Assembly: GCA_020724545.1 (NCBI GenBank)
Contig: DYGR01000016.1
Location: 1-58,735, forward strand
Direction: 5' to 3'
From: Candidatus Methanoperedens nitratireducens
GTDB taxonomy: Archaea > Halobacteriota > Methanosarcinia > Methanosarcinales > Methanoperedenaceae
DNA length: 58,735 bases
The notes under the pieces were generated by a model that saw only the letters and a program-made list of their open reading frames with translations, was not told the origin of the DNA and did not search any database. Every line of letters starts with the position of its first letter. Position 1 is the stretch's first letter. Of the stretch, positions 1,335 through 3,671 are shown one piece after another. A program made the position numbers and the translations under genes.

Positions 1335-3671
1335 ATGGAGGAAACAAATAGAGAATACGGCGCGAAACAGATCCAGGTACTTGAAGGGCTTGAGGCTGTA
1401 CGCAAGCGCCCCAGCATGTACATCGGCAGCACGGATTCAAGAGGTCTTCACCATCTGGTATATGAAGTGGTGGATAACAGTATAGATGAAGCACTTGCCG
1501 GTTATTGCATGAGTATCGAGATCCATCTCAGGGCGGATAACAGCATTAGAATTGTGGATAACGGGCGCGGCATCCCTGTAGACATCATACCGAAATACAA
1601 TAGGTCCGCACTTGAGGTTGTAATGACCATGCTCCACGCAGGCGGCAAGTTCGACAATAACGCATATAAGGTCTCAGGTGGCCTGCACGGCGTGGGTGTG
1701 TCTGCAGTGAATGCGCTATCCGAATGGCTTGAGGCTGAGGTTAAACGGGACGGTAAGCTTTACAAGCAGAGATACGAGCGCGGAAAACCGATAACCGATA
1801 TAGTTCTTATCGGCGATACACAGGGCACGGGCACAACGATCACGTTCAAACCTGATAAAGAAATTTTTGAAACGCTTGAGTTCAATTTTGAAACTATATC
1901 TAATCGATTACGTGAGTTAGCATTCCTGAACAAGGGTATAAAGATCTCAATCAAGGACGAGTTCTCTCTGAAAGAGCAGGTGTTCCAGTACGAAGGCGGT
2001 ATCGTATCCTTTGTTGAGTTCCTGAATAAAAACAAAAACGTCCTCCATGAGAGACCAATATACTTCCAGAAACAAAAGGATACCACTGCAGTAGAGATCG
2101 CAATGCAGTATAATGATAACTATACTGAAAACGTCTATACTTTCGCAAATAATATAAATACGCATGAAGGCGGCACGCACCTGGCGGGCTTTAAGGCCGC
2201 ACTTACCAAGGTATCCAACGATTATGCAAAATCAAAATCGATCCTGAAAGGCGATGATAAACTATCAGGCGACGATGTAAGAGAGGGGCTTACTGCTATA
2301 ATCAACGTCAAGCTTGTGAATCCACAGTTCGAAGGTCAGACAAAGACAAAACTGGGCAACAGTGAGATAAAGGGAATAGTTGAGACACTGGTCTCTGAAG
2401 GGTTATCTGAGTTCCTTGAGGAGAACCCGACTGTAGCAAAAAACATTCTCTCAAAGGCCCTTGAGGCAGCAGAAGCACGTGAAGCGGCAAGGAAAGCACG
2501 AGAACTCACACGGCGAAAAAATGCGCTTGAGGTGAGTTCACTGCCTGGCAAACTTGCTGACTGCTCTGAGAAAGACCCGGCGAAAAGTGAGATATACATC
2601 GTGGAAGGAGATTCGGCGGGTGGCTGCTTTTCTGGAGATACGCTTGTTGCTCTGGCTGATGGTCGTGCTCTCAGTTTTAAGGAAATTGTGGCAGAGCATG
2701 CGATGGGAAAAGAACATTTTTGCTATACTATTCGTAATGACGGTACGATCGGATTGGAGCGCATCATCAACCCACGTATGACTAAGGCGAATGCCGAAGT
2801 TATCAAGATTACTTTAGATACTGGTGAAACTATTATTTGTACACCTGATCATCCATTCATGTTACGCGATGGCAGTTTCAAGCCGGCTGGATCTTTAACT
2901 CCAGATGATTCGCTTATGCCGCTGTATCCGGTTGCCAATTTCAACCACCGCATTGTCTCTATCGAACGACTGGAAGAAGGCATGGATGTTTATGATATCG
3001 AGGTTCCGCATACTCATAACTTTGCTCTCGCCAGTGGTGTATTTGTACACAACAGTGCCAAGCAAGGGCGCGACCGCAAGTTCCAGGCAATACTTCCCCT
3101 TCGCGGCAAGATATTGAACGTGGAGAAAGCACGACTTACAAAAATATTAAAGAACGAGGAGATACGCGCGCTTATAACAGCCATAGGCGCTGGTATCGGC
3201 GAGGGTGAGGAATTTGATATCAATAAGGCGCGGTATCATCGTATAATAATTATGACAGATGCCGATGTTGATGGAAGCCACATTCGAACATTATTACTAA
3301 CGTTGTTCTACAGATACATGCGCCAGCTCATCGATACAGGTTATATCTACATAGCCCAGCCCCCGCTTTTCAAGGTGAAGAAGGGAAAAACTGAGTTTTA
3401 TGTTTACAATGAAGAAGAACTCAACAAGAAACTGGCCGAGACCGGAAGGGATGGAATTACATTACAGCGCTACAAGGGTCTTGGAGAGATGAATCCAACT
3501 CAACTGTGGGAGACCACCATGAACCCCGATACGCGAACCATGCTCAGAGTCACACTTGAAGATGCAATCAAGGCTGATGAGATATTTACAATACTCATGG
3601 GCGATAAGGTGGAGCCCAGGCGCGAGTTTATTGAGAAGAATGCCAGGGATGTTAAGAACCTGGATGTATGA
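1335..3671 (+). CDS. gyrB: DNA gyrase subunit B, interrupted by a mini-intein
   Basis: This is the ATPase/TOPRIM subunit of DNA gyrase, which with GyrA introduces negative supercoils. The GHKL ATPase motifs are visible early ([36 protein letters not shown]). The TOPRIM motif EGDSAGG lies at residues 424-430 and the acidic DADVDGSH motif follows after the intein. Residues 431-573 are an in-frame intein inserted between EGDSAGG and SAKQGRD. After splicing the protein would be 635 residues, the normal GyrB length. Gyrase in archaea was acquired from bacteria, and gyrB and gyrA normally sit side by side. Here they are separated by about 2.3 kb holding three AT-rich genes. The start ATG at 1335 gives the standard N-terminus ([21 protein letters not shown]). 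Confidence 0.97.
2625..3053 (+). other. GyrB mini-intein (143 residues, no homing endonuclease)
   Basis: The intein runs from Cys431 to Asn573 of the precursor. Its N-terminal splice block is [14 protein letters not shown], block B is [13 protein letters not shown] (with the T-x-x-H), and the C-terminal block is [18 protein letters not shown] followed by VFVHN. The penultimate His, terminal Asn and following Ser (+1) make a complete class 1 splicing set, so it should be active. No LAGLIDADG block or other endonuclease lies between block B and block F; only about 30 residues connect them. The insertion point in the TOPRIM motif and the block sequences resemble the cyanobacterial Synechocystis GyrB intein as I remember it, which is a full-length endonuclease-bearing version. 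Confidence 0.95.

Follow-up and report, generated by a model that had tools for sequence, protein, structure and literature searches.

A 58,735-nt stretch of the genome of Candidatus Methanoperedens nitratireducens (contig DYGR01000016.1, positions 1 to 58,735, hereafter the window) carries a gyrB gene that is interrupted by a 143-residue intein. This intein is very probably what remains of a mobile GyrB intein after loss of the endonuclease, and its sequence predicts that it can still splice itself out of the GyrB precursor. Taken singly the element is ordinary; the noteworthy part is the series of empty, full-length and variously shortened alleles to which it belongs and which is found at one site within the genus.

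A mini-intein in the TOPRIM motif of GyrB

A natural mini-intein of 143 residues in the TOPRIM motif of GyrB had been proposed in a sequence-only reading of this DNA, and its description of the element was borne out. The gyrB open reading frame (ORF; 1335-3671) is open throughout, and its translation matched TIGR01059 with 1032.3 bits (cut-off 882.4). A frameshift, which that reading had named beforehand as an observation that would speak against it, was looked for and is absent. The gene is the only gyrB match in the source genome (2.92 Mb in 88 contigs, completeness 99.96%, contamination 5.44%). The intein lies between EGDSAGG, the TOPRIM motif of GyrB with its catalytic Glu, and SAKQGR, a place where intein-free relatives read EGDSAGGSAKQGR. 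Scanned alone, it scored 48.9 bits with TIGR01445 intein_Nterm, 31.8 bits with TIGR01443 intein_Cterm and 65.1 bits with PF14890, above the respective cut-offs of 24.5, 15.6 and 35.8, and a chance origin of these matches is excluded. The translation retains every splicing residue that the sequence-only reading had listed, namely Cys1, TPDH in block B, the penultimate His, the terminal Asn and the +1 Ser. The element has both the HINT fold and the residues of a class-1 intein (Cys or Ser at position 1, TxxH, penultimate His, terminal Asn, and Cys, Ser or Thr at +1).

The same 143-residue form, 97% identical over the intein, is present in Ca. M. nitroreducens ANME-2d (genome G015; loci L031/L122). 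An assembly artefact or frameshift as the source of the short form was rejected because the frame is open and the form occurs in two genomes. A sequence search for a solved structure of the intein found none that was close (best match 8ubs, E 1.4e-9), and an Rfam scan of positions 1-9000 of the window gave no match. We consider the segment 2625-3053 to be a real, natural and probably active mini-intein.

Along the known class-1 pathway, the GyrB precursor would be translated with the HINT domain splitting its TOPRIM motif, after which Cys1, aided by the block B His, would undergo an N-S acyl shift. The chain would then be transferred to Ser+1, Asn143 would cyclise with the aid of His142, and ligation of the exteins would yield a GyrB of 635 residues.

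Endonuclease loss and graded shortening within Methanoperedens

That the endonuclease is missing, as the sequence-only reading also held, could be specified by alignment. Relative to the 435-residue intein of genome G008, the window intein lacks exactly residues 102-393 (292 residues, 876 bp, in frame), and nothing has been added. Profile scans of the window intein matched no endonuclease family. It is therefore a natural mini-intein by the absence of this domain and, encoding no endonuclease of its own, not a mobile (homing) intein; it would no longer drive its own homing. A search of the source genome with the lost endonuclease as query found no copy elsewhere. This query works, since it matches relatives: over 99 genomes, the source genome included, it gave matches in 18, and 15 of these lay at the same gyrB site, where the domain is either whole or survives as a remnant. 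Retention of the endonuclease elsewhere in the source genome was thus rejected. A genome-wide tendency to short inteins was rejected as well, since the other inteins found in the source genome are long. These lie on contigs C59, C13 and C36 (loci L189-L191) in genes for the DNA polymerase II large subunit, MCM and anaerobic ribonucleotide reductase (two inteins), as named from their translations, and by eye they look to be of the LAGLIDADG type.

To follow the allele in other organisms, the best 80 of 113 loci were kept; they had been selected by patterns from the window intein, and counts per phylum are no census. After removal of loci whose intein was not both complete and readable, of duplicates and of one identical row, 81 distinct rows were retained. 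Among these best 80 of 113 loci the allele is present in many bacteria and some archaea, and every row begins with Cys and ends in His-Asn. Fifty-two rows are at least 428 residues long (48 of them exactly 435) and 29 are shorter, including 17 of the 55 cyanobacterial rows and rows named Ardenticatenales (189 residues), Desulfatirhabdium (161) and Parabeggiatoa (214). Viral loci (L111-L121) reached at most 50% identity. The HNH-type core HHxDFNKxNNxPxN occurs in 50 of the 52 long rows, and the endonuclease lost from the window intein looks HNH-like. An HNH endonuclease is also carried by the Synechocystis GyrB intein (Ssp GyrB), the familiar cyanobacterial GyrB intein, which is likened here by kind and not by sequence. 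Foldseek with a model of the full-length intein returned mainly inteins and other HINT chains, with no HNH protein among the 50 matches listed.

Within Methanoperedens, the site was readable in 26 of 31 genomes. The remaining five are G004 and G028, which gave no match, G011, where the contig ends, G024, with a single weaker match, and G027, which has a broken frame though its site reads empty. The site is empty in 12 of the readable genomes, holds a 435-residue intein in six and a shortened one in eight. The shortened inteins have seven lengths (143 residues in two genomes, then 165, 203, 215, 216, 228 and 313), all in frame and with the splicing residues kept. Their absent blocks vary (102-393, 119-388, 156-387, 160-379 and 249-370), and the 216- and 228-residue forms have several gaps each. 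The 313-residue form retains the HNH core, so shortening does not mean core loss everywhere. At least six separate losses would be the simplest reading of these differing blocks, and across the 26 genomes the presence of the intein requires at least 11 changes on the extein tree, which was built from 36 rows. Because empty, full-length and shortened alleles coexist in the genus, the endonuclease was probably lost inside Methanoperedens, which in turn makes it probable that the form that crossed between domains was full-length. Of the two intein sub-clades of the genus, one falls entirely inside an extein clade of 14 genomes (100/99) and one entirely outside; this fit to the clade boundary suggests a long residence of the intein in the genus.

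Some further features of these alleles were observed. A palindromic repeat, read through in frame, is common to the endonuclease remnants of the 228-residue (L130) and 216-residue (L134) inteins at the same place (around nt 400-520), and its pattern was unmatched in the source genome. The 313-residue intein (L131, genome G025) looks mosaic: its residues 1-101 are nearest to G018 and G022, or level with others, and its residues 102-142 and C-terminal part have 92-94% DNA identity to G016/G026. Other inserts in gyrB genes of the genus (L126, L135, L144, L140, L143) comprise one long element at extein residue 498 and shorter elements around residue 567; in G012 and G029 such inserts co-occur with an intein at the site studied here.

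Cys33 and Cys72, the latter beside block B, are invariant in 45 aligned members of the family. The mini-intein might thus be kept as a regulatory switch of gyrase, for instance through redox-dependent splicing involving these two residues, rather than as a neutral remnant; conditional splicing of other inteins is described in the accessible parts of PMC5790916 and PMC6195587. However, both cysteines are equally invariant in 40 long members and may be structural, and nearly half of the readable genomes (12/26) have no intein at all. We regard such a switch as rather improbable. The shortened bacterial forms listed above would also allow the mini form itself, and not a full-length ancestor, to have come from a bacterium into Methanoperedens. 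Yet none of the shortened bacterial rows from the best 80 of 113 loci is 143 residues long, and both 143-residue rows cluster with full-length and otherwise shortened Methanoperedens inteins (99/92), which leaves little to recommend this route.

Movement between species and between domains

G016 and G026 share a full-length intein, with differences at 12 of its 435 third codon positions compared with 195 of 635 in the extein (p = 8e-36). The first extein differences lie 31 nt upstream of this intein and 5 nt downstream of it. This looks like recent homing of the full-length intein. A similar but weaker contrast is seen between the source genome and G015, where third positions differ in 5 of 143 intein codons and in 89 of 635 extein codons (p = 1.8e-4). 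Divergence shifts at the intein edges, where the nearest extein differences are at -4 and +8 nt, and the synonymous divergence (dS) is 0.041 for the intein and 0.232 for the extein. The 143-residue intein may have moved between Methanoperedens species after the endonuclease was lost, perhaps in trans by means of the endonuclease of a full-length allele; genome searches found an endonuclease of this intein family in neither genome. We hold this movement to be doubtful, as among 414 overlapping stretches of 143 codons, taken from 25 gene pairs of the two genomes, 9 were equally low, and the third-position difference of the median gene (9%) is below that of the gyrB extein (14%).

When Methanoperedens was paired with cyanobacteria, the splicing domain was more alike than the extein in 765 of 770 comparisons (medians 71.0 vs 58.9%, maxima 87.0 vs 66.1%). 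Within the groups the same held for only 3 of 91 pairs in Methanoperedens and 433 of 1485 in cyanobacteria. Because the inteins are more alike than the exteins between the groups and mostly the reverse holds within them, the natural reading is that the intein crossed between bacteria and archaea. The analysis supports the two historical proposals of the sequence-only reading, transfer between the domains and descent from an endonuclease-bearing GyrB intein of the cyanobacterial type. An intein tree, which that reading had also suggested, was built from the splicing domain (81 rows, 138 columns, unrooted). It places 14 Methanoperedens rows together with one DPANN row (99/91), and four inteins from another family of the order cluster apart from these (100/99). 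The DPANN row (L037, from a record named DPANN archaeon KA24) is a 154-residue GyrB mini-intein, and its extein is just 61% identical to that of the window GyrB.

In the history that we favour, a 435-residue intein with an HNH-like endonuclease would have reached Methanoperedens by a transfer linking the genus with bacteria. The full-length intein would then have spread and been repeatedly lost within the genus, and in the line to the source genome and Ca. M. nitroreducens an in-frame deletion of 876 bp would have excised the endonuclease.

Several results weigh against parts of this account. On the 435-residue relatives, the profile HNH_3 (PF13392) scored 15.7 bits, below its cut-off of 24.8. 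The structure model of the 143-residue intein has a predicted local distance difference test score (pLDDT) below 50 at residues 101-105, the joint, and 135-143, the C-terminal active site, although the model of the full-length intein has no such stretch (the predictions were built on 45 and 40 chosen rows). The ratio of nonsynonymous to synonymous substitution rates (dN/dS) of the intein against G015 is 0.297, on just 4 synonymous and 4 nonsynonymous changes. Finally, the approximately unbiased (AU) test did not reject one archaeal clade, whether Methanoperedens was joined with the other family (p 0.323) or the DPANN row was added (p 0.589). One entry or several, and passage in either direction, would be compatible with this test and with the unrooted tree, including a single old entry or passage from archaea to bacteria.

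The poorly modelled C-terminal residues and the ratio of 0.297 on eight changes could mean that the insert no longer splices, and that the cell uses an interrupted GyrB or another topoisomerase. However, the genome has a single gyrB with the insert inside its TOPRIM motif, the named catalytic residues are all retained, and the frame is open in two genomes. Against four congeners, moreover, dN/dS is 0.078-0.092 (in a further comparison that included exteins, many dS values are saturated, and the dN/dS of the G025 extein, which looks inflated, probably by a codon indel, was unused). A splicing-dead insert is therefore scarcely credible. Least credible of all is vertical inheritance from the common ancestor of bacteria and archaea, with which the unrejected archaeal clade and the two sub-clades tracking the extein tree would agree, but not the excess of intein over extein identity between the groups and its mostly reversed sign within them.

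Neighbouring genes and comparison with known systems

Table 1. Features of the gyrB region, in window positions
Feature	Position	Strand	Basis
gyrB, 778-residue precursor (635-residue extein + 143-residue intein) and stop	1335..3671	+	single open frame, TIGR01059
TOPRIM motif EGDSAGG, end of N-extein	2604..2624	+	relatives with empty site: EGDSAGGSAKQGR
143-residue class-1 mini-intein, GyrB residues 431-573	2625..3053	+	splicing profiles, residues
Cys1, N-terminal nucleophile	2625..2627	+	Cys in 81/81 rows of the allele
Block B TPDH, intein residues 73-76	2841..2852	+	His invariant in 45 aligned sequences
Deletion joint Tyr101/Pro102; residues 102-393 of the 435-residue form absent	2925..2930	+	alignment
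C-terminal splicing region, residues 121-143, ending His-Asn	2985..3053	+	TIGR01443; His-Asn in 81/81 rows
His142	3048..3050	+	
Asn143	3051..3053	+	
+1 Ser, first C-extein residue	3054..3056	+	translation
gyrA, partner subunit, downstream of gyrB	5904..8450	+	named from translation; homologues in 4/4 relatives searched

Three ORFs separate gyrB from gyrA (positions 3758-5798): one encodes a PLD-domain protein (PF13091 at 42.5 bits), one a small nucleotidyltransferase (PF01909 at 45.9 bits), and one matches no Pfam family. The gap between the two gyrase genes is about 650 bp in G015, which looks like either an insertion in the window or a loss in G015. Further downstream (9550-12016), a ZnuABC-type metal transporter shows 29-30% third-position difference to its best G015 match, compared with 6-13% for most neighbouring genes; it would be either a replacement or a paralogue.

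The kind of element, a gyrB allele spanning both domains and a GyrB mini-intein are already known. In the open-licence literature we found no account of the Methanoperedens GyrB intein or its series, subscription papers being mostly outside that scope. In the homing-cycle model, the endonucleases of inteins are gained, decay and are lost. With empty, full-length and shortened alleles at one site in one archaeal genus, the order and mechanism of endonuclease loss become testable, and for engineering the 143-residue intein provides a GyrB splicing domain that is both small and natural.

The closest likeness is to cyanobacterial GyrB inteins, such as those of Sphaerospermopsis, Iningainema and Anabaena (L039-L041). 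In agreement with the sequence-only reading, cyanobacterial GyrB inteins share the insertion between EGDSAGG and SAKQGR, the splicing residues and a homologous splicing domain, whose identity to that of Methanoperedens inteins reaches 87%. L039-L041 differ in having 435 residues with the HNH-type core, where the window intein lacks residues 102-393. The following comparisons draw on the accessible parts of the papers cited. In the engineered Ssp GyrB mini-intein, as in the window intein, the endonuclease is deleted and the splicing domain kept, and it splices to more than 90% in E. coli; it is, however, a construct with a 14-residue linker at the deletion or a 150+6-residue split form, whereas the window intein is natural (PMC3620165). 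Desulfonema ishimotonii has a natural GyrB mini-intein too, of 123 residues, which its authors connect with inteins from candidate phyla, Archaea and Cyanobacteria, but in a bacterial host; it is likened here by description and not by sequence or site (PMC6390638). The gyrB allele of Halobacteria (6 halobacterial, 19 bacterial and 1 other euryarchaeal) spans bacteria and archaea like the window allele, with a different host; it is likened here by gene and not by insertion site (PMC4071816). From one archaeal dataset, 61 intein-bearing GyrB sequences were removed (PMC9348778). Lastly, closely related fungi have full, mini or empty PRP8 alleles, as do genomes of Methanoperedens at the gyrB site. 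The 2006 survey of PRP8 described mini-inteins of near-uniform length, saw neither intermediate lengths nor remnants of the endonuclease, and raised the question of how such precise shrinkage occurs (PMC1508164). The shortened forms of Methanoperedens are, by contrast, graded, and the series bears on that question of the step from a full-length intein to a mini-intein.
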